Assembly: GCA_963556255.1 (NCBI GenBank)
Contig: OY744616.1
Coordinates: forward strand, 1,763,110-1,827,109
Reading direction: 5' to 3'
Origin: Allolobophora icterica
Lineage: Eukaryota; Annelida; Clitellata; Crassiclitellata; Lumbricidae
DNA length: 64,000 nt
In this document: positions 5,097 through 52,139 of the stretch, piece after piece
How the letters are laid out: every line of letters starts with the position of its first letter
Numbering within the stretch: position 1 is the first letter of the stretch
Made by a program: the position numbers and the translations under genes
Notes under the pieces: model-generated
The model's database searches: none
Told to the model about the DNA's origin: nothing
The model's input: the letters and a program-made list of their open reading frames with translations, nothing else

Positions 5097-5105
5097 TAGG
5101 CCCTA
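5097..5105. other. TA-footprint-like insertion, TAGGCCCTA
   Basis: Copy 1 reads GAAGTA-GGCCCTA-GTTGAAAAAG, where copy 4 (33050-33062) reads GGAGTAATTGAAAAAG. The 7 extra bases duplicate the TA. Confidence 0.8.
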
Positions 5106-5132
5106 GTTGAAAAAGTAAGACTTCGATTTTGA

Positions 5133-5196
5133 GTGATAATAGAAGAAATCCTGGGAGAGCTAGAACAAGCTCTCCCAGGATTTCTTCTATTATCAC
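5133..5196. repeat. Perfect 29-bp hairpin inside the 5' block
   Basis: The arms 5133-5161 and 5168-5196 are exact reverse complements separated by the 6-base loop AGAACA. The paralogous place in copy 4 (about 33083-33135) has only a ragged version of the same foldback. Confidence 0.9.
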
Positions 5197-5385
5197 GCCG
5201 AGCAAAGTGTCATGAAAAGCGATGGCGTTAAAGCGTTGGTTCGCAATTGCTGAAAAGTATCTGGTTTCTCTCGTGTGCCTGGTTATAAGAGAGAAGCTGC
5301 ACAACTCTGAGATGAAAAGTAGGCCACTGCTGCTGATTCGGCCAAGAGTCTCAAACGCTAACGGGCAAAGTTGAATTATTATTGG

Positions 5386-5941
5386 TATTGTTATACTGTT
5401 ATTGTTGTTATATTTATTATAATGTTGTTACCGTTATTTCAGTTGTTATGATTATTATTATATTCTCAGCATTTCACTTGGACTATAGCGCTATAAGAAT
5501 CTGCTGAGAATAAAACGGCGTCTGGAAGGGCAGCTTCTAGTCAACTTTTGGCATGGTGTATGTGCTACAGAAAAACGATGCTTTGAAGATCAGATATATT
5601 AATTATTTGTACTAGGTATAATAGGTAAACGGTCTCTATCAATCCGCTTAACCATACCTTGCTGTTTTAAGTCTTCAATAAATCTGTCATTAGATATCTA
5701 AACCCAGATAATTTCTATAATTGCCTGCTAAAACTAGCTTTAAAATATCAAAACCAAAATTCTGAATATATTTATAGTGGCATGAAAGTGAGTTTGTGAT
5801 ATTTGCTTTTTTAAAGCTTTTCCACTTCATTCTATTTTGTTTCCAGATGTTACATATCCTTCAACTTTCTAGATACGCCATTAATTCAGAACCTTCTGTT
5901 TGTTCTTCAGTTCTTCACAGGTTCTGAAGCAGGGAAAATAA
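5386..5941 (+). other. Intron-like 5' region and splice acceptors of copy 1
   Basis: An ATT-rich stretch is followed by sequence conserved in every unit: TTTCAC, TATAGCGCTATAAGAAT, ATTAATTATTTGTACTAGGT, CAATCCGCTTAACCATA and GCCTGCTAAAACTAG. Two acceptor-like sites follow, TTTTGTTTCCAG|ATG near 5847 and TTCTTCACAG|G near 5920. In the finger frame a TAA lies at 5939-5941, so a transcript using the second acceptor must begin translation at the ATG at 5987. Confidence 0.6.
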
Positions 5942-5986
5942 TACCTGTGTCTGGTTTGTGATAAAACATTCTCATACTCTTCAGTT

Positions 5987-7060
5987 ATGAAAAGACACAC
6001 TAGAGAGACTCATACTCATACTGGAGAGAAACCATATCAATGCCAGTTATGCAAGAAATCATTCACACAACTTTCTCATCTCGAGAACCACCAAAGAACT
6101 CATACTGGAGAGAAACCGTATCAATGCCAGTTATGCCAGAAGTCATTCACACAACCTTCTTATCTGGAGAAACACAAAAGAACCCATACTGGGGAGAGGC
6201 CTTACCATTGCCAGATGTGCAAAAACACTTTCTTCCAGGCTTCCCATCTAAAATGTCATGTAAGAATTCATACAGGAGAGAAACCATACAAGTGTCAGTT
6301 ATGTGAATTTATAAGTAATCGTAAAATTTATCTAAAGATGCACATGAGAACACATACTGGAGAGAAACCATACAAGTGTCAGTTATGTGAATTTATAAGT
6401 AATCGTAAAATTTATCTAAAGATGCACATGAGAACACATACTGGAGAGAAACCATACCTTTGCCAGATATGTGAGAAAGCATTCGCATTTACTTCCGGTC
6501 TGAGACGTCATGAAAAAACCCACTCTGGAGAGAAATCTTACCTTTGCCAGGTATGTAAGAAAACATTCGCATGTGCCTCTGATCTGAGATATCATGAACA
6601 AACCCACACCGGAGAGAAACGACACCTTTGCCACGTATGTCAGATGACATTCGCACGTGCTTCCGGTCTGAGAAGTCATGAAAAAACCCACTCTGGAGAG
6701 AAACCATACCTTTGTCATGTATGTCTGAAAACATTCGCACGTGCTTCACATGTGAGATATCATGAAAAAACCCACTCTGGAGAGAAACCATACCTTTGCC
6801 AAGTATGTCAGAAAACATTTGCATTTGCAAACAGTCTGAGATGTCATGAAAAAACCCACTCTGGAGAGAAACCATACCTTTGCCAGGTATGTCAGAAAAC
6901 TTTCACACGTGCTTCATCTCTGAAAAGACATGGGAGAGTCCATACAGGAGAGAAACCATTTCTTTGTCATGTTTGTAAGAAAACATTTTCTGAGTCTTCA
7001 AAGCTGAAACATCACCAGAAAACCCATTCTGTGGAGAAACCACTTGTATCTCATTTGTAA
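5987..7060 (+). CDS. C2H2 zinc-finger protein, copy 1 (12 fingers), apparently intact
   Basis: The 357-codon frame encodes twelve consecutive C-X2-C-X12-H-X3-H fingers joined by TGEKP-type linkers, so the product is expected to bind DNA in the nucleus. A preceding half finger (LVCDKTFSYSSVMKRH) carries a small in-frame insertion before the first linker. Fingers 4 and 5 are of a different type (CEFISNRKIYLKMH, with the aromatic residue two places after the second Cys). They are identical to each other. The last finger (FLCHVCKKTF...HHQKTH) is complete and the protein ends EKPLVSHL. No KRAB, BTB, SET or other effector domain is visible in this exon. The ATG at 5987 was chosen because an in-frame TAA sits at 5939. 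Any N-terminal exon could not be identified. Target sequence and role are unknown. Confidence 0.85.
   Translation: MKRHTRETHTHTGEKPYQCQLCKKSFTQLSHLENHQRTHTGEKPYQCQLCQKSFTQPSYLEKHKRTHTGERPYHCQMCKNTFFQASHLKCHVRIHTGEKPYKCQLCEFISNRKIYLKMHMRTHTGEKPYKCQLCEFISNRKIYLKMHMRTHTGEKPYLCQICEKAFAFTSGLRRHEKTHSGEKSYLCQVCKKTFACASDLRYHEQTHTGEKRHLCHVCQMTFARASGLRSHEKTHSGEKPYLCHVCLKTFARASHVRYHEKTHSGEKPYLCQVCQKTFAFANSLRCHEKTHSGEKPYLCQVCQKTFTRASSLKRHGRVHTGEKPFLCHVCKKTFSESSKLKHHQKTHSVEKPLVSHL
6287..6454 (+). repeat. Exact 84-bp tandem duplication of one finger
   Basis: 6287-6370 and 6371-6454 are identical in all 84 bases, each encoding one finger plus linker ([13 protein letters not shown]...). The absence of any synonymous difference implies a very recent duplication or gene conversion. 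Confidence 0.95.
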
Positions 7061-7292
7061 AACACATTTTCGAAATAGAAAATCATGTTAGAATTCATGC
7101 TGGGGAATACTAAAGCCAATGACAGTTATGTTAGAGAAAATTCTCACATAATTCTGAACCCATTATAGACTGGAACTATATAGATGCACATAATGTCAAA
7201 AAACCCATAGAGACATCATAAGGTGTAGCCACTGTATAATGCCATTCTCATATGAACTTCATAGGTTCTGGATTTGATATGAAACGCAAGAA

Positions 7293-7301
7293 TAGGCCCT
7301 A
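7293..7301. other. TA-footprint-like insertion, TAGGCCCTA
   Basis: Copy 1 reads CAAGAATA-GGCCCTA-TATGAGTTC. Copy 4 reads CAAGAACATATGAGTTC (near 35985). Confidence 0.8.
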
Positions 7302-7354
7302 TATGAGTTCGATATAAGAATATTGTAATATTGGTTTCTTATGTACTATTCATG

Positions 7355-7905
7355 ATCATAACTGTAATCTCCAAACTTCTAAAGCGCCACTCGAAGGCCA
7401 AGCGCAGGGCACCAGCCTATTCACGAGCGCTACGTCAAGTCAGAGGTTGTTTCCAGAGAGTAATCCAAGAGAAGTCCGAGTCCAGATTCCAGAAGATCAA
7501 ATCAGAGGGGATTTCCAAAAGAGTCGTCCAAAAGAGTTCCGAGTCCGATTTCCAGGGGTCCAGATCAAGAGAGGAGGCAGCAGTTGTCAAGGCGGGTGTC
7601 GTTATGGGCGAGAATAATTGGAAGGCGGAGGATCAGATGAGTCAGGGTAAAGGTACTTGAAAAGGTGAGACTTCAATTTTGAGTGGTAAGCCCCGGGGTG
7701 ATAGCTAGAGGAGCATGAGGAGGAGGATGGAGGACAGGTTGCAATGATGATGGCGAAACAGAGAATCTGCGGAATTCAGGAGGGAGATCATTCCAGAGGC
7801 GTGGTGCTGTGTTGGATATGCATGGCTCGGTTGGAGAACTTGAAATGAGTAGTGACTGGAGGTCGAGATAGGAGAAGGATGGGTGGCTGATATCTGAATA
7901 GTTAA
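7355..7905 (-). mobile_element. 5'-truncated L2-like LINE
   Basis: The minus strand at 7673-7912 encodes APRLWNDLPPEFR, the conserved C-terminus of L2-clade reverse transcriptases. The left part (7370-7460) resembles an L2 3' end with GGCGCTTTAGAAGTTT. The same 3' sequence occurs at 41036-41125 and, more diverged, at 45735-45825. The rest is non-coding debris. The plus-strand open frame across 7331-7660 is not a gene. Confidence 0.65.
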
Positions 7906-8756
7906 ACTTCAACCCCTACTGGTGAGAAACGTTATCTGTGCCAGTTTATGCCATATCTCCTTTATAATTTAGTGATATCTAGCTCTCATGAGACTCCATA
8001 CTGGAGAAACCTTTCCTGTGCCATTTTGCGTGACTTACTTGAGAACTTATAATTATTGGAAAAAATCCAGTTTGTAAAAATTGGTTCGACCGATCTTCTG
8101 GTCTACTGGGCCGTGCTGGAATTCATATTAAAGATCAAACACAAGACAAAAAGGCCTACAGTGATCTAAGGAGAAATATGATATCACATACTGAAGAGAA
8201 ACCATACCTTTATCAATAAGGAAACATTCGAACGCACTACAAAAGTGACAGAACGTAAAACTACCATAGCCCTACTAGATCGAAAATACTTATGTGTCAG
8301 GTTTATAAGAAACAAGTCATCCTCTTAGTGTACAGAATCATGTTAGGATCCATTCTCACCAGCTCCAGTTAGGCCTATGTCAGCATTTTTTGCAGTCATT
8401 CCACTCTGCAGCTTCACGAGAGAAACCACTTAAAACGCTAGTGACTGTTACAAAATGAAATATTTTCTATCTGCTGAGAGTGGAAAATCGTGCTAGAAGA
8501 TGAATTTTGGTCGAAAGAAATTATCTGAAATATTTTAACTCGTCCTATGTTCGAAGCAACTGGATACGAAGCATGATGCAGAATTTTAAGTTAGTGAATG
8601 AAATTATGCCCATTAATATTTTGTATCTAGGCCTAAGTACAAACATCTTGATTGTTTGCGTAGACCTGTTGGTCAAGTTTGTGATGTTTAGGAACTTTTT
8701 AATTCGATAGATTGTCAAAGTAAGCACTTCAACAATGAGCTGTTTTATTTTGCAGT

Positions 8757-8764
8757 TAGGCCTA
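8757..8764. other. TA-footprint-like insertion, TAGGCCTA
   Basis: Copy 1 reads GCAGTTA-GGCCTA-TATACC. Copy 2 reads GCATTTATATAC (near 18762). Confidence 0.75.
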
Positions 8765-8933
8765 TATACCCTGTATGAAGAGGATCTTCATGGTTGCTTT
8801 TACCTATTTCCCTTGTTGCGTTTACTAATTTCATTCACTCACAAGGATCTTTTCTTATTTTGTTCTCTGGCTTATTGATTTTTTACTTATTTTTAATGTT
8901 AGACAGTCAGTCATGAATAATTATGTTTGGCTA

Positions 8934-8941
8934 TAGGCCTA
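8934..8941. other. TA-footprint-like insertion, TAGGCCTA
   Basis: Copy 1 reads GGCTATA-GGCCTA-CGCATG. Copy 3 reads GAGTATACACATT and copy 6 reads GACTATTCGCACT. Confidence 0.7.
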
Positions 8942-8955
8942 CGCATGTTAGAACC

Positions 8956-9180
8956 ACTGAACCAGGGCTGTAGGCCTAGTGGTAACATTAAAGGTGAGTA
9001 CTCGTACGCTACCGGTTAGTTTTCCGAAACAAATCAGAGGTTAGTATAATACGCTACAGTATTTTGTGAGTATGCGCTACAGTATTTTAATGTAAATAAA
9101 TATAAATATTTTGTGAGGTAATAGTATACGGTCTCTATAGAGGTGAGTACACGTTGTATACCCGCGCATACCCTCGACTG
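8956..9180. mobile_element. hAT-type MITE related to 44363-44715
   Basis: It is flanked by GTTAGAACC on both sides (8947-8955 and 9181-9189). The left side contains CAGGGCTGTAG. The right terminus, CAGTCGAGGGTATGCGCGGG on the minus strand, matches an internal part of the 44363 element. It is a diverged copy that seems to have lost part of its right end. Confidence 0.6.
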
Positions 9181-9290
9181 GTTAGAACCTATAGGTTGGG
9201 GACGTTTTGCATTTTAAACTAAATTTGTTCGAATAAGGTGCACAATACTGTCGCGAATTTCTCTTTGAACCACAATTCTGGGAGAGTGGA

Positions 9291-10145
9291 ATAATAAGGC
9301 AGCCGACGGCACGTGTCGCGATTACCAGGATGCCTCACGGCTGTCGGTGATGTCCGTCATGTTATGTCCGTCAGGTTCGGCTTCAGCTGTTTGCGGAAGG
9401 CTTAGAATTGAAGACAAGACTGGCAACTGGAAACGTATTAAAACGGTAGCTTTATTTCGCTGATTCGGGTCGCAGTGTTTAATCTAGTCCCCCTCTTATG
9501 GGGGGAGGTTTGTTGGGGGGACCAACAAGGGCGACCTTCCTTTTTTTAAATAAAAATTTCATCCATGTTCTGGGGACTTTCACCTTGAAAAAATATTTCC
9601 GTCTTAAAAAAAACGTTAAATTTTCTTCACTTTCCTTAAGAAATCATCCCTGAAAATGTGACGACCTTTTTTAGGAATTAATCTCTCAGAAACTTTCATA
9701 TATATTATTCTATTATTTTATTCTTATATTACTCAACTCTGGGGGGCAAATATGTATCCGGGGGGGGGGGGATTTCCCCAAAAGCTGTCTAGACAGAGGC
9801 GGATTAAGGCATGTTCAACATGTTCGACCGAACAGGAGCCCCACACTTGAGGGGCCCCCACACATGCAAAAGAATTTTTTTTTAATATTTTAAAATTAAT
9901 GTTATTTGTTAAGTTTAATAGTAAAAATGAGCCAAAAACTGAGAACAAATAATTTGAAAACTAATTTTAATCAGTGTGGGAATTGTAGAGAAAAGACTGG
10001 GGGTTTAACATTTTATCCGTATTTTGCAAGCTGATGTCAGCGAAATTTGAAAGCAACTCATTTCAACACCAGCAGTTTTGGAAATCAGACTCGAATCAAA
10101 ATTATAGGTCTACGGTGCAACTGCGAGAGTGTTAGGACTGATCAG
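9291..10145. other. Mixed debris with partial MITE ends
   Basis: CAGTGTTTAATCTAGTCCCC at 9473 is one terminus of the MITE family seen complete at 61277-61436. CAGAGGCGGATTAAGGC near 9784 looks like a hAT-type end. No partner ends could be assigned. G-runs at 9760-9770 and CCCC runs are present, and there is no credible gene. Confidence 0.4.
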
Positions 10146-10217
10146 AATGTCGTGTACCTGAAAAAGGATTATTATAAGCAGCAGTTTATAATAATCCTTT
10201 TTCAGGTACACGACATT
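10146..10217. repeat. Perfect 32-bp hairpin, 8-base loop
   Basis: 10146-10177 and 10186-10217 are exact reverse complements (each starts AATGTCGTGTACCTG on its own strand) with the loop GCAGCAGT. It lies just upstream of the copy 2 promoter-like block. Confidence 0.9.
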
Positions 10218-10329
10218 ATGATTTCTTTGTTGAGAAAATTCAAACATGCATACGTACACAATGGAAATTTCTCCTGTAGTCCCCCTATGCCAGAGACTCA
10301 TAGTTAAATAATGCTAAATCACACTAGAA

Positions 10330-10470
10330 CAACGTCAGCTTTAAACCTTATTTTGACACCTCTTGTTCAAAATAGAATTTCCTTGTTTACGTAGAGACCA
10401 TAAAACTATGACGTCACTAATTTTAGCGCCTTGACCAAGGTAAGATTGAAATCTGCAGTTTAATACCAAT
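10330..10470 (+). promoter_or_regulatory. Conserved 5' block of zinc-finger unit copy 2
   Basis: It has the same order as copy 1: TTTTGACACCTCTTG, TTCCTTGTTTACGTAGAG, a full palindromic CRE-like TGACGTCA (10409-10416), ATTTTAGCGCC, and a strong donor-like CCAAG|GTAAGA with GT at 10440-10441. Homology stops at an AAT repeat near 10470. A promoter role is inferred. Confidence 0.6.
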
Positions 10471-11689
10471 AATAATATAATAATAATAATAATTTCGTTT
10501 AATATCTTCAAACTGACAATTACGCAGTATGATTACAAATCAGTATGAACGTATGATCACAAGTTATTACAGGAGTCGAATTTAACTGTATAACAGGCAG
10601 ATAGACAATTTCCACACTACACGCTTGCTTATTTATGACGCTGAGGACTAGGCCTTTTATAATATAGAAAGTAACACTAAATAAATTGTTATTAACTCCA
10701 TGCAATAACTATGGAACACAGTCACAGCCAAAGCCAGTAATGTCAGCGAGAGGGATGTGCTTGCTTTGCTTTGCAAAAACTGTCCGTAATTGGTGCTGGT
10801 TTGGATAGGCCTAAGCACTGTTTTCTTACGTTTCAGAAAGTTATCCATAAGACAAACAGCAAAATTACGGTACATAGTTAGCATATAACAGCGAACGTCA
10901 ACGAAATAGGGATATGCTTTGCAAATCTCTGTATTATCGTTCAGCTAAAGGTAAAACCAGGCGAATTGCACAAATTTCAGATTCTACAAGTCCAGAGTAC
11001 ACAATCCGGAAATAGACCAGCATATTGCAAATAAAGCCTTCACTGGAGGAACCACTAGAGTCCATTTTGACATTTTTTTAAAGCTAACTATGTCTGGTAA
11101 TACGTAATGCTATAGACTACAGAGCAAGTGTGTTTTTTCAGAAAACCCAAGTCAGTCCAGAGTTACAATTAGAAGAAAATATAGCGTTTATGTAAAAACA
11201 ACTAGCCTAGAGTCCTAGCTAGAGCTTCGGTGTTTCTTCCATGGAAAAAACAATCAGGCTCATATTCAGTGTTGATTTTCCAAAATGAAACACTTGTAGA
11301 CTTTCAAAGTTTGTTTTGTGAATACTTAAACTCTTTTAAATGGAATCTAGTTGTAGGCCTACTTCTGATGAAGGCTTCAAATACATCGCGCTTACATTGG
11401 GTGCAGAAATGATTGGCAGTCGATTAGGAGAAATATAGGCGCTATATTAAATTTTATAAAACACACGTGTTATTAGGCTAGAAATGTAACGTGACCATAA
11501 GCCTACATCTTATTTACGTCACTGTAGGCCCTAGTACGCAAAGAATAACTATCAGCAACATCACAAAACTGGTGTGATCGAATACCCAATTGGATCCTTG
11601 TGGATCATACAGTTACAGGAACACTATAAGTAGCGTATGAATTTGAAAACACAGGCTGTTAATGATAAACCATACAGTGTTAAGCATCA
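10471..11689. other. AT-rich region with no recognised feature
   Basis: Several short open frames occur but none has recognisable motifs, repeats or paralogues in the window. The region may belong to the long first intron of copy 2, if the 5' block at 10330 is its promoter. Confidence 0.4.
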
Positions 11690-12593
11690 CATTATTTTCA
11701 GAACGCTCTCGCGGACCCCCGCCAAATCACGGGATCTCCACCTCTGGATGATGGCGAATAGACTTAGCCTTAATCCCTCAAAAACCCAATTGATTTGGTT
11801 TGGAACTAAACAGCAATTGTCAAAACTTGACCTCCAGCTAAGGCCTCACAATTTCCTGACTTCACGTTCTCCTCTAGTGTCCGTGATCTGGGTGTCACGC
11901 TTGACAGTGCCTTAACGTTGACTGAGCACCTAACACTGCTGACCCGCTCCTTTTACTACCAACTAAGGCGTCTTAGAGCCATTAGGAGGTCAGTATCCAC
12001 CACTGTCTTTACGACCATGGTGCACGCCTTTGTCTGTACACGCATTGACTATTGTAACTCGGTGCTAATCGGACTTCCAAAGACGCGTCTGTCCTCAATG
12101 CAGTCGGTCTTGAATGCTGCAGCCAGACTTATTGCACGTCTCCCACGTTACTCGCATATCTCCACATACATGACCAATGAACTTCATTGGCTTCCTGTGG
12201 CGTCTAGGATCAGATTTAAAGTCTTGCTCTTAGTAACTAAGTCCCAGCAGGGTTTAGCGCCTAAATATCTCTGTGATTTGATGTGTAAACCACTCTCTGC
12301 TCGCTCATCTCGTCCTCTTCGATCCTCCGTCCGACTTGATCTCTTTGTCCCTCGATCGCGGACTTCTCTGACCCAACATCGGGCCTTCGCTGTAGTGGGT
12401 CCGTCACTATGGAATGACCTTCCCCCCTGCAGTCCGTAGTAGGATTCTAGAGGGGATCACACCTGCTTCTCTTCGCTGCCTAAAGACTTACTTGTTTACG
12501 GGCCTGTCACGTTGAGAGCGCTTCTGTATAGCCCTGCTGAGAGAAGCGCTTTATAAATGTTCAGATAAGATAAGATAAGATAAGATAAGATAA
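11690..12593 (+). mobile_element. 5'-truncated L2-clade LINE with (ATAAG)n tail
   Basis: Two frames cover the end of an L2 reverse transcriptase. The first (to about 11910) has LHLWMMANRLSLNPSKTQ. The second (11918-12439) has CTRIDYCNSVLIGLP, NAAARLI, LHWLPVASRIRFK and FAVVGPSLWNDLP. A frameshift lies between them near 11900, and the YADD core is missing. The 3' end has GCGCTTTATAAATGTTC followed by (AGATA)n at about 12562-12593, the expected L2 tail. Confidence 0.85.
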
Positions 12594-12639
12594 ATCGGGG
12601 GTCCGCGGACCACAGTTTGAAAAACTCTGTCATAGGTTA

Positions 12640-12752
<113 letters not shown>

Positions 12753-13428
12753 ATTCTTTATTAAACGCTAGCAAACGCACAGCGCTTTACATACAATTTT
12801 ACACAAAGAGGAAAGAAAAATATAACAGTAATAATGACGTTAGATCATAAATGAAATAATAGCAACAGAGCCTAACTATACAGCATCCTACCCAGGAAAC
12901 CTTGTCGGGTAAGGGAGTCAAATCTAGGAAGAACCAGATTATGAGAACGAGGACGCAAATCATACCCGGTCTTTAGAACTGGAGGTAGAAGGTCGTGGAG
13001 GAGGTGACTAGGGTTTTTGAGCATGTTCTTAAACAGATCACGATCAGCTTTTTTGCAGAGTTCCTCAAAAGTAGGAAAAGCAGGAGGGAGGTAGCCGAGA
13101 CGAACCAACTTACGGATAATTGCGCCCAAATGATTAAGTTCCTGCTTGTTGGCAAAGCCTAACCATAACTGGGAACAGGACAGCATACGGTTGACAGTGG
13201 TAGCCCGTATTACATCATGAAGCCTGGGGCCCGAGAGCCCATGAGAATCAAGATACGATGAGCGTAAATGGATTGTTTAGCCTTTATGCTTAGTTTTTGG
13301 ATATAAAGAGAGAATCTAAACTTACCGGTTATTTCAATTCCTAATATTTTTAATAAAGAGACCCTTGGTATTCCGTATATAGGAGGTGGAGTGGATTAAA
13401 GGATCGTTTTGGGCTTGGTGAAGCTCAA
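12753..13428 (-). mobile_element. 5'-truncated CR1-like LINE
   Basis: A 104-codon minus-strand frame (12872-13186) encodes a LINE C-terminus: LVRLGYLPPAFPTFEELC, then HDLLPP, then FLGRMLYS. It is homologous to 41696-42043. Upstream minus-strand sequence to about 13428 carries degraded RT. It is inserted immediately 5' of the conserved CAATCCGCTTAACCATA of copy 2. Confidence 0.75.
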
Positions 13429-13697
13429 TCAATCCGCTTAACCATATCTTGCTGTTTTAAAAAAATCAGTCGTTAGATATTAATAGCCAGATAATTTCCA
13501 TAACTGCCTGCTAAAACTTGTTAAACTATCAAACCATGATTCTGAATAATATTATGTTTCATAGCACTGTAAGCGAGTTTTCGATATTATGTTTTAAAGC
13601 TCTTTCGAATTAGTGATAGGTGCTTCATTCGTCTGTGTTTCCAAATTTTACTTATCATTCAACTTTCTACATACGCCGTTAATTCAGAACCTTCTGT
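13429..13697 (+). other. 5' region and splice acceptors of copy 2
   Basis: It matches 5645-5920 of copy 1. The first acceptor-like site is weakened here (TTTCCAAATTTT in place of TTTCCAGATGTT). The second, TTCTTCACAG|G near 13710, is intact. Confidence 0.6.
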
Positions 13698-15416
13698 TTG
13701 TTCTTCACAGGTTCTGAAGCGGGTAAAATATATATATATCTTAGAACTTTCTCATACTCTTCAGTTATGGAAAAACACACCAGAACTCATACTGGAGAAA
13801 AACCATATCAATGCCAATTATGCAAGAAATCATTCACACAAACTTCTAGTATGGAGAGACACAAAAGAACACATACTGGAGAGAAACCATATCAATGCCA
13901 ATTATGCAAGAAATCGTTCACACAACTTTCTAATCTGGAGACACACAAAAGAACACATACTGGAGAGAAACCATATCAATGCCAATTATGCAAGAAATCG
14001 TTCACACAACTTTCTAATCTGGAGACACACAAAAGAACTCATACTGGAGAAAAACCATATCAATGTCAGTTATGCCAGAAAACATTCTCTTGCGCTTCAG
14101 GTCTTCGAAGTCATGAAAAAGTCCATTCTGAAAAAAACCCATACATTTGCCAAGTGTGTCAGAAAACATTCTCCAAATATTTTAATCTGCAAGTCCACAT
14201 TAGAATACATACTGGAGAGAAACCTTACCAATGTCATGCTTGTCAAGAAAGATTTGCTACATCTTCCAATCTAAAACAGCATGGTAGAATTCATACTGGA
14301 GAAAAACCACACTACTGCAAGTTATGCCCAAAAACATTCTCATGTAATTCCACGCTACAGGTTCATTTTAGAATCCACACTGGAGAGAAACCTTACCAAT
14401 GCCATGCTTGTCAAGAAAGATTTACCATACTTTCCAGTCTAAAAGACCACGCTAGAATTCATACTGGAGAAAAACCATACCAATGCCAGTTATGCCAAAA
14501 AGAATTCTCACGTAATTCCACTCTACGTGTTCACAAGAGAATTCATACTGACGAGAAACCATTTCTCTGTCATGTATGTCATAAAATATTTTCTTCTTCT
14601 TCCAGTCTACGAAAACATGTTAGAATCCATACTGGAGAGAAGCCTTACAAATGCAGGATATGTCAAAAAAAGTTTTCCTATTCTTCCAATTTAAGGATTC
14701 ATGCAAGAATTCATACCGGAGAGAAACCGTACCAATGTCAGTTGTGTGAGTTCAAAGGTAATGATTACGGTTACATAAAGAGGCACATGAGAACACATAC
14801 CGGAGAGAAACCATATCTTTGTCACGTATGTAAGAAAACGTTCTCATTGAGTTCAGGTCTGAGAAATCATACAAAGACCCACACCGGAGAAAAACCACAC
14901 CTTTGCCAGGTATGTTATAAAACATTCGCATATGCTTCCGGTCTGAAAAATCATGCAAAATCCCACACTGGAGAAAAACCGAACCTTTGCCAGGTATGTA
15001 AGAAAAGGTTCGCATGTGCTTCCGGTTTAATAAGTCATGGAAAAACCCACTCTAGAGAGAAACTATACCTTTGTTTGGTGTGTCAGAAAACATTCGCGCA
15101 TGCTTCACATGTGAGAAGTCATGAAAACACTCACTCTGGAGAACAAAGGTATCTTTGCCACGTTTGTCAGAAAACATTCACATGCGCTTCCGGTCTGAGA
15201 CATCATGAAAAAATTCACTCTGGAGAGAAACCATACCTTTGCCAAGTATGTCAGAAAACATTCGCATTTGCTTCCGGTCTGAGACGTCATGAAAAAATCC
15301 ACTCTGGAGACAAACCATACCTTTACCAAGTATGTAAGAAAACATTCGCAAGCATTTCGGCTGTGAAATCACATGGAAGAATCCACGCAGAAACCATTTC
15401 TGTGTCATGTTTGTAA
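13698..15416 (+). CDS. C2H2 zinc-finger protein, copy 2 (18 good fingers, last finger lost)
   Basis: The 572-codon frame has eighteen complete C2H2 fingers and a nineteenth whose first Cys is Tyr (YLYQVC). Fingers 1-3 are of the FTQ/H-K-R-TH type, 5-11 alternate QERF and KTF types, and 12 is the CEFKGNDYGY type. Fingers 13-19 are the TFA-type block. The frame is open upstream through the acceptor into MFFTGSEAGK. The ATG at 13767 (VMEKHTRTH) corresponds to the starts used by the other copies and is more likely. The first half finger is lost by a local deletion. A 5-base deletion near 15383 shifts the frame, so the final finger is replaced by ETISVSCL and a stop. This is probably still a functional array: no internal stop is present. 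Confidence 0.8.
   Translation: MFFTGSEAGKIYIYLRTFSYSSVMEKHTRTHTGEKPYQCQLCKKSFTQTSSMERHKRTHTGEKPYQCQLCKKSFTQLSNLETHKRTHTGEKPYQCQLCKKSFTQLSNLETHKRTHTGEKPYQCQLCQKTFSCASGLRSHEKVHSEKNPYICQVCQKTFSKYFNLQVHIRIHTGEKPYQCHACQERFATSSNLKQHGRIHTGEKPHYCKLCPKTFSCNSTLQVHFRIHTGEKPYQCHACQERFTILSSLKDHARIHTGEKPYQCQLCQKEFSRNSTLRVHKRIHTDEKPFLCHVCHKIFSSSSSLRKHVRIHTGEKPYKCRICQKKFSYSSNLRIHARIHTGEKPYQCQLCEFKGNDYGYIKRHMRTHTGEKPYLCHVCKKTFSLSSGLRNHTKTHTGEKPHLCQVCYKTFAYASGLKNHAKSHTGEKPNLCQVCKKRFACASGLISHGKTHSREKLYLCLVCQKTFAHASHVRSHENTHSGEQRYLCHVCQKTFTCASGLRHHEKIHSGEKPYLCQVCQKTFAFASGLRRHEKIHSGDKPYLYQVCKKTFASISAVKSHGRIHAETISVSCL
13890..14057 (+). repeat. Near-exact 84-bp finger duplication in copy 2
   Basis: 13890-13973 and 13974-14057 differ at 2 of 84 bases. 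Both encode the same finger (helix LSNLETH). Confidence 0.95.
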
Positions 15417-15950
15417 CAAAACATTTTCCATAGATTCAGGTCTGCAACGTCACGAGAAAACACAATCGGTGGAGAACCATTTAAGTGTTGTTTGTAAAAG
15501 ACATTTGGAAATTTAAAAAAGTAAGTAATCAAGTTGGAATTCATGCCGGATCAAAATAAAGTCAATACTAGTTATGCCAGAGAAAATGCTCACGTAATTC
15601 TGTTTTCCGAGTTCACCTATACAAGGAAACATATAGATGCTCGTAATATTAAACAACCCCAGTAGACACATCATGTACATTATATCTATGCCCTTGTAAT
15701 GCCATTATCATGGGCTTCATATGTCTTGCATTTGATATTAAACTCAAGAAAATACGAGTTCCATATAAGATATTTGTCGTATTAGTTTATTTGTCTTACA
15801 TATGAGGCTTAAGTCTAAATACTAGTTAAGCTTCAATCCCTACTGGTGAGAGGCGTTATCTCTGCATGTTTATGCCATAATTTCCTTTAAAATTTAGTGA
15901 TTTCTAAACTCTCACGATACTCCATACTGGAGAAACCCTTTGCTGCGCCA

Positions 15951-36492: not shown

Positions 36493-37623
<1,131 letters not shown>

Positions 37624-39293: not shown

Positions 39294-39344
39294 TACTTAG
39301 AACAATAATTCGTCAAACAAAATATGACCTCCTATAGCCTCATA

Positions 39345-39995: not shown

Positions 39996-40004
39996 AAAAT
40001 ATGC

Positions 40005-41125: not shown

Positions 41126-41531
41126 GAAGAAGAAGAAGAAGAAGAAGAAGAAGAAGAAGAAGAAGAAGAAGAAGAAGAAGAAGAAGAAGAAGAAGAAGAA
41201 GAAGAAGAAGAAGAAGAAGAAGAAGAAGAAGAAGAAGAAGAAGAAGAAGAAGAAGAAGAAGAAGAGAAGAAGAAGAAGAAGAAGAAGAAGAAGAAGAAAA
41301 GAAGAAGAAGAAGAAGAAGAAGAAGAAGAAGAAGAAGAAGAAGAAGAAGAAGAAGAAGAAGAAGAAGAAGAAGAAGAAGAAGAAGAAGAAGAAGAAGAAG
41401 AAGAAGAAGAAGAAGAAGAAGAAGAAGAAGAAGAAGAAGAAGAAGAAGAAGAAGAGAAGAAGAAGAAGAAGAAGAAGAAGAAGAAGAAGAAGAAGAAGAA
41501 GAAGAAGAAGAAGAAGAAGAAGAAGAAGAAG

Positions 41532-41561
<30 letters not shown>
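41126..41561. repeat. Long (GAA)n microsatellite, tail of a LINE
   Basis: About 435 bp of GAA with three small interruptions (near 41264, 41298, 41454). It abuts GTATATTCTTTATT, the LINE 3' end. Read on the minus strand it is AATAAAGAATATAC then (TTC)n. The 185-190-codon Glu/Lys/Arg open frames across it are artefacts. Confidence 0.95.
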
Positions 41562-41563
<2 letters not shown>

Positions 41564-43013: not shown

Positions 43014-43925
43014 AGGGGTTTCCAGAGAGTAGGCCTAGTCCAAAAAAGTTCGAGTCCGGTTATCATTATATAATTTATTCCAAGATAATATTGAACAGCA
43101 CCTAGAATGTTGAGAATTTATCAAAATATTTGACCTCATCATGATCTCTATAGGCTAATATGGGAATCCACTAATCGACTCGGCTCAATTGATTGGTGAA
43201 TTGGAATAGATCTCACGAAGATCGACATAAATTTCTTCACCTACGTTCTCTTCTAGTAGACCCGCGTCTTAGGCACTTTTTCTCTCTGCTGATATAGGCC
43301 TAGTATTGTGGAGGCCATAATTGTGTTAAAACAGGTCACAACTTATATGCTATTGAATTACAAGTTTCGGGCAATGAAAATTTCATAAACTCACTGATAT
43401 GTATTAATAGTACTGGATTGATAAAGCTTCAGTCATTGGCAATTGGCCGACGGCGAATCAGAAGGTCAGGGAAGACAGTTTTCGTTGACGTATAATTAAG
43501 CAACGAAATCATATAATACTTTATATTTAACGATATTTCTAAAATTTAATTAGGGCCTACAATGGATTTATGGGTAAAGTATTTTAAATAATTAAAAAGT
43601 TTTAAAAAATGTCAACAAGTCTTCTGTCGTCTGCTCTGTTTTTCCCATGGTTTACCCTGACTGAGCGATAATCCGAACTTTCAGAGCCCATTAGCTATCC
43701 AGTAACTATTAATACATATCAATTGTGCGCAACCAAGCCCAAGTCGACGCGTTGTCATCTTTTACAAAAAGTGAATAAATTTACCCATTTACAAATATAT
43801 TCACAGGTGTTCGTATATCAGGTTATTTTATATATTATGTAAGGTTTAAAATTAGAAAGTTTGCTGCTTGTACGCATAACTTGAACAATGCAGTTGTTTG
43901 TTGCTTCTTATTGACTCCACTATCA
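43014..43925. other. Unit spacer with a repeat shared with 20925-21175
   Basis: 43105-43370 repeats the segment seen at 20925-21175. 43371-43925 has no recognised content apart from GGGCCTA motifs and AT-rich sequence. Confidence 0.55.
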
Positions 43926-44190
43926 GTGGATAAACTTATCTGCTTTACGCCTCATTTTGACACCTCTTGCGCAAAATAAATTTTCCTTGTGACGCAAAGA
44001 TCACAAAACTATGACGTCACTACTTTAGCGAAATTGTACAAGGTAAGATTCAAATCTACAGTTTACAAAATTACAACTAAATTACAGTTTGGACTGACTA
44101 AAGTCAGTGAAGTTTCACAAATCTCTCAACTCATTTTTGCCTTTCTGCAGAATGTTCAATTATTATCAGTGGAAAGTTCCACTATTAGCC
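43926..44190 (+). promoter_or_regulatory. Conserved 5' block of zinc-finger unit copy 5
   Basis: It contains TTTTGACACCTCTTGC, CRE-like TGACGTCA (44012-44019), TTTAGCG and a strong donor-like ACAAG|GTAAGA with GT at 44043-44044. CAAAATTACAACT and ATTTTTGCCTT follow as in the other units. Confidence 0.6.
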
Positions 44191-44362
44191 TACCAGCCCC
44201 TGTAGGCTTAGCCTGTTCTAATGTTTGCCTCTACGACGTCTACGTCGTAAATTTGAACACAGCAAAATAATCTTTAAAATTGCTTCCTCGTGTGAAATAT
44301 TTGAAGAAATATTCTGCAACCTTAATATATCACTTTCAATGGCTTTACATCTGGAGTGTAGG

Positions 44363-44715
44363 CAGGGCTGTAGTCGAGCGTATTATACGCGGCTATACAG
44401 CGTATACTAACCTCTAGAGAAATTTGAGAGCGTATACTCATGGCTGTAGACGAGGGTATACGCGGGTATACAGCGTATACTTACCTCTGTAGATGAATTT
44501 TTTAGAAAAAGAGAGGTTTCAAAGGTTTTTAGGGCGAATGACTTAAAAAAAAAGGTCATCAACTTTTTCAGAGACAAAATCGTAAAAAGTCTGAAATTTT
44601 CTGAGAATTGGTGAAAAGTCTGAAATTTTTCCTTAAAAAAGGTCTTCAAATTTTTTTTTACGCCGCTGGTCACCGGTAGCGTATACTCACCTCAAATTTT
44701 ACCACTACAGCCCTG
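44363..44715. mobile_element. hAT-type MITE (353 bp), CAGGGCTGTAG ends
   Basis: The termini CAGGGCTGTAGTCGAGCG and, inverted, CAGGGCTGTAGTGGTAAAAT are flanked by the perfect 8-bp duplication AGTGTAGG (44355-44362, 44716-44723). The left part holds two tandem units with GCGTATACT and ACCTCTNNAGA-like sequence. The centre is T-rich and imperfectly palindromic. It is related to 8956-9180. Confidence 0.9.
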
Positions 44716-44819
44716 AGTGTAGGGCCTAGTTAGAATCATTCATTTCGTATGACTGTCTACGTTGTGGCTTCTCACGTGTTTCTTATAGGGCCTATTATAA
44801 ATCAATTACAGGCATAGGC

Positions 44820-44980
44820 CCTAGTTCGAGAATTCGCATTTTACGAATTTTACGAATTGTAAAAATTCACGAATTTTTACGAATTTTAAAGTTGCAGTTT
44901 TAAAATTCGTTAAAATTCGTGAAATAATAAAATAATAGAATTCTTCGCCATGGCAACGAATTTTATTATTTGTTTACTTT
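44820..44980. repeat. AT-rich repeat of ACGAATTTT units
   Basis: The unit (T)ACGAATTTTA recurs about eight times in both orientations, so the stretch can fold on itself. No target duplication was found. It is possibly an old palindromic MITE. Confidence 0.5.
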
Positions 44981-45260
44981 TCAACTTTTTAAGCAAGTAA
45001 ATGTCAATTAATGTCATAGGCAATCAATCAATCAGCCGTAAACGATAGCTGACTAGCTAATACTATCCTCTTTGTTTCAAACTGTGTGCCATTTACACTC
45101 CGTTGCTTTGAATTGATCAATAAGCAAGTCGAAAGTTTCACACAATTGCCATTTATTTCTTAAAATTAAATTTAAAGTAGATATAAATGAGACATTCGGT
45201 TTCTTAAATTGGCATCAAGCATTATTGAATGCATGATTCATGAAATTTACTTAATATAAC

Positions 45261-45442
45261 CAGAGACGGACCTAACTTTTTTGGTCTCTGAAGTTAAAAC
45301 TGTTATGGGGCCCTGTAAAAATAGACACGGAACACCCTATATATCTACAGTCCGAGTCGCTTCCGAAGCTGAAGCCCGGGGCTCTGAATGTTCAGTTTGA
45401 GCTTCATTGGTTTCATAGTATATAATTATATATGCGTCACTG
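45261..45442. mobile_element. hAT-type MITE (182 bp)
   Basis: The ends CAGAGACGGACC and, inverted, CAGTGACGCATA are short and imperfect. The 8-bp duplication AATATAAC is perfect (45253-45260, 45443-45450). Confidence 0.75.
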
Positions 45443-45450
45443 AATATAAC

Positions 45451-46074
45451 CATCTACTCGTGTAGAAGAAGTTCGCAAAACCTGGAGTGTCAGTGATTCC
45501 ATACACTGAATGTCGGTTTTTTCCAAGGCACCATACTTTTTCGAGTTATCTTAGGCCACAATGCAGTACCTTATAATGCTTATGAAAAAGGACGAGTCAA
45601 AGGGGGAATTGCGGCTATAGACCATTTGAATTTAGAAAGCCAGTTCGAAGAATGAAAAAATACTTGTGCAAGAGTTGGTCCGAAAGGCCACTCCAGCTAT
45701 GTTCTCGGACAATAGGACATGAACAGGAGTGATCGTAATGGTAATCTCCAATTTTCTATAGCACCACTGTAAAGATAAGTGCAGAGAACCATCTTATTCA
45801 CTAGCGCTGACCATTGGATCCACCCTTGTTTCCAACTCACTCTGTGTTTCTTCTACATAGGCCCTAATATGCACCTAGAATCCCTTTCGGCCCTCCATAC
45901 CTGTTACCTATTACCTTCAATCCCGTCTGGATACAGCAAAACATTGTCTTTTGCACAGGATGGAATTTTTATCATCTGGATTTTTAGGAAATAGGCCCTA
46001 GCAGGGGTTGGAGGGCATTGAAAATATCTCCATTCCCTTGTTCTCTCAGAGCGCTTCGTTCAATACCTAAACTG
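45451..46074. other. Spacer with a faint L2 3' end
   Basis: 45735-45825 resembles the L2 3' end at 7370-7460 in minus orientation (GTAATCTCCAA, TATAGCACCACT, TTCACTAGCGCT). Nothing else was recognised. Confidence 0.4.
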
Positions 46075-46313
46075 CTGAGATGAAAAGTAGGTTACTGCTG
46101 CTGATTGGGCCAAGAGTCTCAAACGCTAACGGGCAAAGTGGAATTATTAATGGTATTTTTAGACTGTTATTTTTCCTATTGTTATTTTTATTAATATTAT
46201 GTTGTTATTATTATTTTTTTTTCCCGAGGTACATGTAATCCCTCAGGAGTATAAAAAAATTATGCTAGGAGCTGTTGTTGAATGTCTGAAAAATCAGGCC
46301 TCGTCCTCCGCAA

Positions 46314-46386
<73 letters not shown>

Positions 46387-46485
46387 TATCCGAGGTATTT
46401 ATGATCCCTCAGGTGATCAAAATAATTATTTTGATCACCTGATAATAATTATTATCAAAATAATAATAATGATAAAATAGTAATA

Positions 46486-46521
<36 letters not shown>

Positions 46522-46986
46522 TTCTCAGCATTTCACATATGTATAGCGCTATAGAAATGTCTTGAGAGTAAAAGAAGCTTCTGGAACGCACCTTCTAAGA
46601 TTTCAGCTTTTCGCTTCGTGAATGTGCTACAGAAAGCAGATGCTTTGAAGAGCTGATTTATTATTATGTAATAATTATAATAGATTAACGGATTCACTCA
46701 ATCAATCCGCTTAACCATATCTTGCTATTTCCTTAATAACTCAGTCGTTAGATATCAATTGCCAGATAATTTCTATTATAACTGCCTGCTAAGACTGGTT
46801 ACAATATCAAAAGCATGGTTCTGAATATCTTTCATGGTGACATGAAAATGAGTATTCGATATTTGCCTTTTTGAACTGTTCTGAATTAGTTATAGGTACT
46901 TTATTCTATTTGCTTTCAGATGTTACCTATCGTTCAACTTTCCAGATAAGCCGTTAATTCAGAACTTTCTGTTTGTTCTCCACAGC
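46075..46986 (+). other. 5' region of copy 5 with (ATT)n and a perfect palindrome
   Basis: GAGATGAAAAGTAGG, GCTGCTGATTGGGCCAAGAG and GGGCAAAGTGGAATTATTA match the other units. (ATT)n runs lie at 46313-46386 and 46488-46521. A 32-bp perfect palindrome lies between them (46410-46441). It continues with TTTCTCAGCATTTCAC, CCGCTTAACCATA and the acceptor-like TTTGCTTTCAG|ATG near 46919. The second acceptor (CTCCACAG, ending 46985) is cut from its exon by element B. Confidence 0.6.
46410..46441. repeat. 32-bp perfect palindrome without loop
   Basis: CAGGTGATCAAAATAA is followed at once by its exact reverse complement. Confidence 0.95.
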
Positions 46987-47606
46987 GGTAAACGTACGCT
47001 TTAGCGTAATTAATTATTGGCAGGATTTCGAAAAAATGAATAGCGTAAATAATTATTTCATCCACCTTCCGGCTTCTAGTTAAGTTTTAATATTACACGT
47101 TTTAACCGTTCATCCATCCAGCTTCCAGTTTTAGCTGATTTTCATCGCACATCCAGCTTTTATTTTAAGTTTTACTATGAAATGTTTTCATCGCTCATCC
47201 ACGGCAATGATATCGGCGTTAAACGATTATAGTTTCATCGCAATTCCAAATTCCAGTTTCCGTTTTATTATGTAATATTTTCATCATTTATCCAGCATCT
47301 AGTTTCAATAATATTTTCATCAATCATCCAACTTCTAGTTTGAGTTATATTTTCATCAGTCATCACAATATCCACTATAAGAGTTAAAGCACCTAAAGTG
47401 GAGGATTACCTTCGCACATCCAGCTTCTCGTTTGATCTCCATTCATCGCTCAGCCAGCTTTCAGTTTGACTTCTATTTTCATCGCTCATCCAGCTTCCAG
47501 TTTGATTTCTATTTTCATCGTTCATCCAGCTTCCAATAATTAATTACGCTACAGCGAACGTGGACATTTCGTCAAATAATTAATTACGCTAAAACGTACG
47601 TTTACC
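46987..47606. mobile_element. Minisatellite-cored TIR element B, inserted at the copy 5 splice acceptor
   Basis: The ends GGTAAACGTACGCTTTAGCG and, inverted, GGTAAACGTACGTTTTAGCG agree over about 32 bp with one difference. A degenerate second copy of each end lies just inside. The interior is tandem units with CATCGCTCATCCAGCTTCCA and GTTTGATTTCTATTTT. These are the reverse complement of the core of element A in type. Flanks CTCCACAG and CTTCAGAG (6 of 8 matching) may be the decayed duplication. Confidence 0.8.
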
Positions 47607-47672
47607 CTTCAGAGCTTCTGAAGCAGGGAAAATATATACCTTTGCTTGGTGTGTCAGAAAACAGTCTCATAA

Positions 47673-49247
<1,575 letters not shown>

Positions 49248-49447
49248 CAAAACATTTCCCAATCTTCAAACTTGAAACATCACGGGAATACCCATTCTAT
49301 GGAGACACCATAAGTGGCTTGTGTATAAAAGACATTTTCGAAATAAAAATCATGTTAGAATTCAAACTGGAGAAAAGTAAAGCCAATGCCAGTTATGGTA
49401 TAGAAAATTCTCATGTAATTCTGTTCTGCGGGTTCTCAAAAGAACCC

Positions 49448-49728
49448 GGTTCTATGGGGTTCTAGGAATTTTCGCCCCCGGAAGATTCTCCCCCGGAAGT
49501 TTCGCCCCCGACATTTCGCCCCCGGGAAGTTTCGCCCCCGTCGATCCAGCTTCTAGACTTAGTTACATTTTCATCATAAATCCAGTTTCTAGTCTTCTAG
49601 TTACATTTTCATCGCTAATCCAGCTTCTAGTCTTAGTTACATTTTCATCATGGATCCCGGAGGCGAAACTTCCTCGGGGGCGAATCTTCCAGGGGCGATT
49701 CTTCCGGGGGCGAAATTTCCGTATCCCG
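49448..49728. mobile_element. Minisatellite-cored TIR element C with TTTCGCCCCCG arrays
   Basis: The flanks AAGAACCC (49440-49447) and TAGAACCC (49729-49736) differ at one base. Each end is an array of TTTCGCCCCCGG(AAG), in inverted orientation. The centre has three units of CCAGCTTCTAGTCTTAGTTA followed by CATTTTCATC, the same minisatellite as in elements A, B and D. The uninterrupted target is seen at 58500-58525 in copy 6. Confidence 0.8.
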
Positions 49729-49987
49729 TAGAACCCATACTAGACTGGAACCATTATAAGTTCCAGTAATGTCAAACAACAGTAATCATGTGTATTATAT
49801 CTAAGCCTGTATAATTCCATTCTCATATGGGCTTCATATGTCCTGCATGTGATATCAGAAGAACATATGACTTCCATATGAGAATATTGTCATATCTATG
49901 CCAGTTAGGGCCATAATTTCCTTCAGAATTTAGTGATTTCTAAACTCTCATGAGACTTAATACTGGAGAAACCTTTCCTGTGCCATT

Positions 49988-49995
49988 TAGGCCTA
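49988..49995. other. TA-footprint-like insertion, TAGGCCTA
   Basis: Copy 5 reads GCCATTTA-GGCCTA-TACCTCAACC. Copy 4 reads GCCATTTATGCCTGAAGC (near 36180). Alignment on both sides is restored only when GGCCTA is removed. Confidence 0.8.
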
Positions 49996-50411
49996 TACCT
50001 CAACCAGTTCGTAGAATCTCTTTTTTCGTGACTTACTTGAGAACTCATATTGGAAAGGATCCAGTTTGTAGAAATTGGTTCGTCCATTCTTCTGGTCTAT
50101 GGGGCATGCTAGAATTCATGCTAGATATCAAACTTGCTCATGCCAGTTTTTAGGCACAAAACAGGTAATATAAATATCTAAAGAGAAACAAGATAACACA
50201 TACTGAAGAGAAGTAATAGCTTTGTCGGTCAGGAAACATTCGAATGTACTACAAACGTGACAAGACATGAAAACACCCGTACTAGAGAGAAAATACTTAC
50301 ATGTTAGGTTGATAAACAACATGTCCTCATCTTAAAGTCTACAGAATCATGTTAGAATCAATTATACTAGTTCCAGTTATGCCGGACAGTTTCACGAGGG
50401 AACCCACTTAA

Positions 50412-51252
50412 CCCTCGAGTGCCCAAGCTATTTTTTGGTACACGAATGCCCAACGGGGGGGGGGGTCCGACCGGACCCCAATGTTTTCATTGTGATATAT
50501 GGAGAACGGATTGGAATATTTTAACGGGATTTGGCTTGTTATAATCCAAATTCAATTTGCAATCGACTGATATATGGTATTTCACAATAGCGCCACCTAG
50601 TGAAACTTTATTTGAACTTTAATAGGGGCCCTACTCTTTTGTAGTTTCTTTGCAATTTCGGGATTTTTCGCATGTATTCAATTGTACGCATGTAGCTGTT
50701 CCCTGGTTGTGGGGTACAGGATTGGAATATTTTAACGGGATTTGGCTTGTTATAATCCAAATTCAATTTTCATTCGATTGATACATGGTATTTTACAATA
50801 ACTTGCGCTAAAAATTTATTTCTGGGTTGGTAAACCATATGCCAGTATGACCACCAGCCGCATATCTTGGGGTGTCCTTGGTATATGCTATGGTTGTGGG
50901 GTACAGGAATGGGATATTTTAACGGGATTTGGCTTGTTATAATCCAAATTCAATTTGCAATCGACTGATATATGGTATTTCACAATGACGTGCGTTAAAA
51001 TAATTTATTTCTGGGTTGGCAAACTATATGCCAGTATGACCATCAGCCGCATATCTTGGGGGTATCCTTGGTATATGCTATGGTTGTGGGCTACAGGGTG
51101 GTTGTATATTCACGCAAAATATAACATACGAAGCCCAATTGAATGCTTTAGGATGTCCTAAAAGCATTTCTACAATTTCGTAGCCGTTCTAAAGTTATCC
51201 GTGAAAAGCGGGTCTGGGGTCCGGTCGGACCCCCCCCTTGGGCATTCGAGGG
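50412..51252. mobile_element. piggyBac-type MITE (841 bp)
   Basis: The ends CCCTCGAGTGCCCAA and, inverted, CCCTCGAATGCCCAA lie exactly at TTAA (50408-50411, 51253-51256). Just inside both ends is the self-complementary GGGGTCCG(A/G)(C/T)CGGACCCC. The interior is three to four tandem copies of a roughly 190-bp unit with AACGGGATTTGGCTTGTTAT and GATATATGGTATTTCACAAT. TTAA targets plus CCCT ends are diagnostic of piggyBac-like elements. No transposase is present. Confidence 0.88.
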
Positions 51253-51658
51253 TTAAAAAGCCAGACAAAATCTTACAATTTAATGAAAATTTTCTATCTG
51301 TTGAGAGTTGAAAATCGTGTTAGTGGATTGTTATAGGTGCTGAATATGTGATGGTGTATTTAGTGAAGAGAAAGCATTTTTCAAGTACTGTTGCAGAGAG
51401 ATTTACAACTCTCCGTGTTTCTCACACAGTACAGTCTCAACCGGAAAAGAGTTTGACAGGATAATGCAAACCGAGAAACTCCGCAATGATATTTGATCGA
51501 AAGAAATTATCTGAAATATATGAACACGCTTTACGTTCAATATTCGAAGCATCTCGACACCTAGCATGGTGCAGAATTTTAAGTTCATGAATGCACAGTA
51601 ATACACAAATGACTTTATGCCCATTAATATTTTTTATCAAAATTGAAGAGCTTTTAAG

Positions 51659-51666
51659 TAGGCCTA
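51659..51666. other. TA-footprint-like insertion, TAGGCCTA
   Basis: Copy 5 reads TTTAAGTA-GGCCTA-CACAATG. Copy 3 reads TTTAAGTACAAAAGC (near 27823). Confidence 0.75.
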
Positions 51667-52131
51667 CACAATGTTTGTGTTCAGGAGCTGTTGGTAAACT
51701 TTCTGATGTTTTAGGAGCATTTTTAATTCGATTGATTGTGTGTTAAAGTAAGCACTTCAACTACACTGAGCTACTTTGTTCTTGAATGATATGCTTTGTA
51801 TGAAGAAGGATCTTCATGGTTGCTTTTTACTCATCCCTTTGTTACTTTTACCAATTTCGCTCACGAACAGAGATCTTTTTCTTATATTATTATCTGGCTT
51901 ATTGTTTTTAAACTCATTTTAAATTTTAGTTATGAGTAATTATGTTTGAATGTACTGTTTGGGTATGTTTTGCATTTAAAAAATTTGTTCGGTTAAGGTG
52001 GACAATTGAACCACAATGACTATTATTTTAGTTTTATGATACTTTTTCAGTGATCAAGGATCCTGTTTCTTTTTTATTGGTGTTTACTCGCTTAAAATTA
52101 ACTGTAACTGTAGATTAGTGCACTATCAAGG

Positions 52132-52139
52132 TAGGCCTA
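52132..52139. other. TA-footprint-like insertion, TAGGCCTA
   Basis: Copy 5 reads CAAGGTA-GGCCTA-CTTTAGGGGA. Copy 2 reads CAAGGCAATGTAGGGGA (near 19115). Confidence 0.7.

Follow-up and report, generated by a model that had tools for sequence, protein, structure and literature searches.

An abundant TA-flanked palindrome in the Allolobophora icterica genome as a probable footprint of transposon excision

Introduction

How does the same palindromic 8-mer, TAGGCCTA, come to stand at 31 sites in one 64-kb stretch of the Allolobophora icterica genome? The stretch, hereafter the window, is C19:1763110-1827109 (contig OY744616.1) of assembly GCA_963556255.1 (G000; 1,117,693,669 bases in 328 contigs). 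The original prediction, made from the letters of the window, was that a transposon that has GG...CC ends and targets TA left TAGGCCTA and its length variants behind as footprints (scars) when it was excised. We consider this reading very likely to be correct, given insertion at TA with duplication of that dinucleotide, a fixed GG/CC core, families of elements with GG ends, and TAs shared by elements and scars at two positions of a short interspersed nuclear element (SINE). The activity of DNA transposons is usually measured by the number of resident copies, a measure that is blind to departures. In this genome, it could be possible to tally departures directly, to date them by motif decay, and to map them at base resolution. 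If the reading is right, a single 8-mer would serve across the genome as a log of germline transposition that can be dated and is possibly still growing.

An excess specific to one palindrome

The impression that the window is full of the motif was confirmed. A pattern count gave 31 TAGGCCTA sites (spanning 4654..60463), 9 TAGGCCCTA, 7 TAGGGCCTA, and no TAGGGCCCTA, and a second-order Markov model predicts ~0.5 sites for the 8-mer and ~0.1 for each of the 9-mers. Genome-wide, TAGGCCTA occurs 273,201 times, which is ~25 times the Markov expectation of ~10,971, compared with 7,459 occurrences of the reversed control, a word that contains CpG; TAGGGCCTA and TAGGCCCTA together occur 65,378 times, compared with 2,168 for their reversed control and ~4,200 expected. 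Genome expectations are second-order Markov values scaled from the fetched DNA. The density of TAGGCCTA is uneven, at 484/Mb in the window, 244/Mb in the genome, and 124/Mb in 17 sampled 10-kb stretches. Long runs of N occupy positions ~1-4200 of L017 and ~1-2600 of L022. Of all 16 NNGGCCNN palindromes, TAGGCCTA alone clearly exceeds expectation in the window and sample combined (60 observed versus 2.4 expected). The shorter words TAGGCTA/TAGCCTA are also in excess (45 versus 19.5), and TAGGGTA/TACCCTA are not (16 versus 18.5). An apparent strand bias among the listed TAGGGCCTA/TAGGCCCTA places is probably an artefact of chunked listing. The literature, as far as a partial library covers it, yielded no description of a palindrome spread through a genome in this way, which is no proof that none exists; one sea-anemone paper matched the motif through a primer.

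Insertion at TA

The original prediction held that, at nine sites, one zinc-finger unit carries the motif exactly where another has a single TA, and this was judged in a self-alignment of the window. A plain-TA partner with the right gap length was recovered at five sites, all on the + strand: TAGGCCCTA at 5097..5105 (plain TA in the paralogue near 33054) and TAGGCCTA at 8757..8764 (6 bp missing from the paralogues, with plain TA in 18766), 17512..17519 (a clean 6-bp insertion relative to 51430, which has plain TA), 19235..19242 (clean 6-bp insertion relative to 52243), and 49988..49995 (clean 6-bp insertion relative to 27003). At two further + strand sites the gap is right but the partner dinucleotide differs or is ambiguous, namely, TAGGCCCTA at 7293..7301, where the paralogues lack 7 bp and have CA or AA, and TAGGCCTA at 52132..52139, which has a 6-bp gap relative to 19117. 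Of the remaining two sites, 8934 is covered by no alignment and 51659 has ambiguous gaps. A clean case beyond the nine is TAGGCCTA at 18559..18566 (+ strand), a 6-bp insertion relative to the 92% identical paralogue at 17866 on the minus strand.

Across the window and sample, 6 of the 10 alignable TAGGCCTA loci have a partner that lacks 5 to 6 bp exactly there (6 bp at 8757, 17512, 18559, 52132, and L011:1352; 5 bp at 53513), versus 1 of 359 control loci, represented by other TANNNNTA words (Fisher's exact test, P = 4e-10). An ungapped partner also exists at one of the 10 loci, 18559, which lies within a simple repeat. This test left out eight rows (the overlapping L001/L002/L004/L005 and the L025 array), and 19235 and 49988 fell outside it because they failed the flank filter. 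Likewise, TAGGCTA/TAGCCTA were gained by insertion at four of seven loci. TAGGCCTA thus arises through insertion of GGCCTA at TA rather than mostly by substitution or deletion, and the preinsertion site can be recovered as a single TA dinucleotide.

The L025 stretch (C15:1300001-1310000) is, over its entire 10 kb, a tandem array with a unit of ~440 bp. TAGGCCTA is present in 3 of its 23 monomers and TA in the other 20; at least two of the three scarred monomers share a neighboring base and may represent one event, and the three are perhaps not independent.

Two young element families with GGGG...CCCC ends

Two TA-flanked elements in the window had been proposed to begin with GGGG and end with CCCC, and both proved to be real and multicopy. 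The first, at 38094..39293, has terminal inverted repeats (TIRs) with the ends GGGGAGAGTTGC...GCAACTCTCCCC, no recognized gene, and TA at 38092-38093 and 39294-39295. The second, at 61855..63905, is also a TIR element, with the ends GGGGAGACCGGGG...CCCCGGTCTCCCC and TA at 61853-61854 and 63906-63907; neither element was assigned a strand. When the best 40 of 472 candidates were scored, the 38094 family matched 39 other places, mostly at full length and with 91 to 97% identity. Among 30 copies in which both junctions were inspected, TA is present on both sides in 23, and 58 of the 60 ends are GGGG or CCCC, the exceptions being in L030 and L083; two of these copies, L044 and L074, have identical flanks and are probably one insertion. 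For the 61855 family, of which the best 40 of 231 candidates were scored, long matches are 90 to 98% identical, and all 12 copies inspected are flanked by TA at each end. The genome thus contains two young families of TA-flanked elements with GGGG...CCCC ends (here called the GGGGAGA families), which have the TA target-site duplication and TIRs expected of the Tc1/mariner superfamily.

The young copies themselves carry scars. The 25 full copies of the 38094 family, including that in the window, span 30.4 kb, differ on average by 2.1% from their majority sequence, and contain four derived scars: TAGGCCTA in L091, TAGGCCCTA in L090, and TAGCCTA in L097 and in L107. The majority sequence has TA at all four scar sites, and the scars in L107 and L090 occupy the same TA. 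The 12 copies of the 61855 family contain one scar, TAGGGGCCTA, in L115. Together, these five GG/CC scars accompany ~1,340 substitutions, and at ~1 scar per 270 substitutions they are a real share of the indel spectrum.

Scars and elements also resemble each other in their targets. Just outside the TA, A is depleted and C enriched both at scars (P = 5e-8 over 158 flanks) and at elements (P = 2e-4 over 46 flanks), with no difference between the two at this base (P = 0.16); these tests covered eight positions, were uncorrected, and used rounded background frequencies. As a separate observation, L089 (C9:34652581-34653841) has CGTA-GGCC directly before the left GGGG of the element, as though GGCC were what remained of a second element that once adjoined it.

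Plain, occupied, and scarred TAs in SINE copies

It had been proposed that full GG...CC elements be sought at sites orthologous to footprints. Elements were seen at two SINE positions, where element and scar occur at the same homologous TA of paralogous copies. At the first position, AGAGTA|CG in a tRNA-like SINE, a 38094-family copy is inserted at C4:50249498-50250701. A genome-wide search with exact flanks recovered 47 copies with 3 to 8 extra bases after this TA (reversed control, 0). GG/CC scars account for 22 of the 47 (GGCCTA in 10, GGCTA in 5, GGGCCTA in 2, GCCTA in 2, and GGCCCTA, GGGGCCTA, and GGCCTATA in 1 each), CATGTA, CCGTA, and CGGTA occur once each, and the last 22 are one- or two-base derivatives, short duplications, or unclassified. 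A plain TA with exact flanks was present in one copy in the window and sample. Because the 20 of these 47 copies that were compared together with their flanks are dispersed and diverged (median pairwise identity, 63%; best, 76%, with some of the aligned left part possibly outside the SINE), the scars at this position appear from the sequences to be mostly separate events.

At the second position, the SINE-like copy in the window (40632..40723, + strand) has plain TA (AAGAGGTAGCGGGATC). The element is present at C9:65832539 and C9:65813253, and the two insert-bearing copies recovered by a pattern search have TAGCCTA (C8:13504773) and TACCGGTA (C3:34865183). Aligned with the window copy, the former is 90% identical (136 bp) and the latter 87% identical (143 bp); apart from the 5 or 6 extra bases at the TA, both show just small differences. 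The pattern used for this position gave 2 matches versus 5 for the reversed control, and both places were confirmed as SINE copies by inspection of their sequences. The tRNA-like SINE of the first position (L122-L141) has a recurrent 3' part (like ACCTTGAGCAAGTCCTTCACTCACAATTGCTCAG), and its copies are very diverged.

These sites bear on the idea that no transposon is involved and that a mutational process, such as a habit of a polymerase, a nuclease, or repair, inserts GGCCTA at TA. Such a process would leave scars in great excess over resident elements, as observed, but it would have to account for a fixed core together with a duplicated TA, for a preference beside the TA like that of real elements, and for the insertion of elements at the very same TAs; furthermore, the CATGTA and CCGTA/CGGTA inserts at these TAs match the ends expected of other TA elements. 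We regard a transposon-free origin as very unlikely.

A proposed route to the scars and their length variants

On the excision reading, a cut-and-paste transposon with ends TA-GG...CC-TA would insert at TA and duplicate it. At excision, the transposase may cut 2 bases inside the 5' ends of the element, which would leave a TAGG-3' overhang on both flanks. Two GG overhangs cannot pair, and gap-filling repair would be expected to join them as TA-GG-CC-TA. Slippage during fill-in on the short G:C template could add an extra G or C on one side, giving TAGGGCCTA or TAGGGGCCTA, and loss of one base would give TAGGCTA or TAGCCTA. The GG/CC core of the scars agrees with the GGGG...CCCC ends of the elements; strictly, what we infer in the scars is no more than the two outermost bases of each end.

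The original prediction had explained the 9-mers differently, as remnants of 2 + 3 or 3 + 2 bases, and this part of it failed. Independent retention of 3 bases from GGG ends predicts ~3,900 TAGGGCCCTA in the genome (given 0.239 five-base remnants for each four-base one), and only 729 were counted, near the background of ~402 expected by the Markov model. Ends beginning with GGC, whose 3-base overhangs would anneal as GC:GC, were also rejected, as TAGGCGCCTA is at background (444 versus a hand-scaled ~439). The word TAGGGGNCCTA totals 3,791 occurrences, and among the 100 matches listed, N is G in 76, T in 11, A in 8, and C in 5. Most of the listed matches are TAGGGGGCCTA, so extra G residues seem to be added on one side, without following the A that comes next in the GGGGAGA ends; with A in 8 of 100, retention of the fifth base of GGGGA is not favored. 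In the sampled DNA, five-base remnants have only G or C between GG and CC (21 versus 0). Judged from these words, extension of the G run looks mostly one-sided. If so, it would record the germline joining of noncomplementary GG overhangs, and the choice of end-joining products in an animal germline would become a genome-wide statistic.

Scar number, resident copies, and age

A number of observations weigh against the excision reading or its attribution to the resident families. The word TAGGGGAGA shows no excess (4,912 versus 4,964 Markov expected), from which resident GGGGAGA-ended copies probably number in the hundreds, compared with ~338,000 intact scars. The original prediction called for an abundant, GG-ended family inserting at TA; such families are real and young, but they probably number hundreds of copies rather than hundreds of thousands. 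No transposase could be linked to the families; the six-frame translations of the 61855 element had no Pfam match above a curated cutoff. The copies of the 61855 family contain just the one scar in 24.8 kb, and L108 and L116 each have one more TAGGCTA/TAGCCTA, absent from the list of insertions of at least 3 bp, so these words can also arise in other ways. Single-end remnants (TAGGTA/TACCTA) are not enriched (108 versus 99.6), though they might conceivably be expected. In the SINE at AGAGTA|CG, 25 of the 47 inserts are not intact GG/CC scars, including GGACCTA, which has an A between GG and CC, and, among 24 copies with an insert at a third repeat site, just 1 has TAGGCCTA (reversed control, 0). 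The three-state evidence is paralogous, with no element and scar seen as an allele pair. Finally, the target profiles of scars and elements differ at position +5 (P = 0.014).

No autonomous copy of the GGGGAGA families was found; a candidate at C1:9317055-9321526 (L086) was a chance pair of end words. Among the large inserts listed between paralogues, none had GG...CC ends.

The decay of the motif provides an estimate of age. One-mismatch relatives of TAGGCCTA number 358,997, versus 222,000 to 263,000 expected, and the excess equals 0.36 to 0.52 of the intact scars. This fits steady production of scars since a divergence of ~0.10 to 0.16, a figure that rests on the Markov baseline. If mutations are assumed to arise at a rate of about 3e-9 per base and generation, each haploid genome would gain ~0.01 scars every generation, an output within reach of a few hundred active copies. 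For this reason, the scarcity of resident copies is not in itself a refutation of the footprint reading, and slow turnover could explain why scars outnumber elements several-hundred-fold. The GGGGAGA families or close relatives may have made most scars through long, low-rate turnover. We think it rather more probable than otherwise that the system is long-lived, low in copy number, and highly itinerant, with hundreds of thousands of scars and several hundred departures for each resident copy.

A variant with the same mechanism is that the scars were left by another TA-targeting GG...CC family that is now rare or lost. The few resident GGGGAGA copies and the difference at position +5 would be accounted for in this way, as would an age from neighbor counts that is older than the 2 to 3% spread of the GGGGAGA families. 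Conversely, a GGGG element occupies TAs that are scarred in other SINE copies, and a family with GGC ends would give TAGGCGCCTA, the background-level word noted above. No other convincing GG-ended, TA-flanked TIR family appeared in a scan of 258 kb, although so short a span could easily miss one. We hold this variant to be a distinct possibility, albeit a doubtful one.

The excess of one-mismatch relatives is modest, as decay predicts, which also bears on whether TAGGCCTA is simply a selected protein-binding site or a word favored by composition. The motif is palindromic and abundant, as either would be, but composition at the level of the Markov model falls short ~25-fold and the motif is gained by 6-bp insertion. 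In addition, none of the 47 window motifs lies inside the six zinc-finger frames, where 4.2 were expected (P = 0.016). These frames, named by sequence reading and delimited from stop to stop, are at 5942..7057, 13683..15413, 25188..26264, 34237..35739, 47814..49244, and 56735..57970, all on the + strand. Selection or composition is therefore a most improbable source of the motif, and we retain excision.

Known systems and other insertions

Excision footprints of Tc1/mariner elements are 2 to 4 bp long, according to PMC7913693. Members such as Tc1, Sleeping Beauty, and ZB likewise leave short end remnants at TA, and one SINE copy here has TACATGTA, the form expected of an element with CA...TG ends. 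Relative to the Tc1 and Sleeping Beauty remnants, the scars described here differ in their GGCC core, in usually keeping both ends, in their one-sided G extension, and in their presence by the hundreds of thousands in one genome. Passer, a pogo-type element, has a TA duplication and short TIRs (PMC9976928), as do the GGGGAGA families, to which no transposase was linked and whose relatedness to Passer would be conjectural.

Two other groups, described in PMC4482050, differ in their duplication. The TIRs of ISL2EU (PHIS superfamily) usually begin with GG, as here, but ISL2EU duplicates AT within A|AT|T, whereas the GGGGAGA families duplicate TA (in 23 of 30 copies of the 38094 family and 12 of 12 of the 61855 family), and ISL2EU was rejected as the source of the scars. 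PIF/Harbinger elements duplicate 3 bp, TWA, and the duplication here is the 2-bp TA with no constant third base.

Other insertions at TA were also observed. TACGGTA/TACCGTA occur at window positions 10866 and 21287 and at C8:52809348 and C19:2170442. Single cases are TACCGGTA (L143), TACATGTA (L141), and, in copies of the 38094 family, TACAGTA (L110) and TAAGCTTA (L105). Their form suggests footprints of TA-targeting families with other ends.

Two larger inserts in the window are of a different kind. An insert of ~900 bp at 21659-22560 has inverted ends (GCAGTCTTGTTGTC), an apparent 7- to 8-bp duplication, and CAAGACC repeats, and it is missing from the paralogue at 23897-24600. Another, of ~620 bp at 46986-47607, has the inverted ends GGTAAACGTACG and is missing at that place in the other aligned zinc-finger units.

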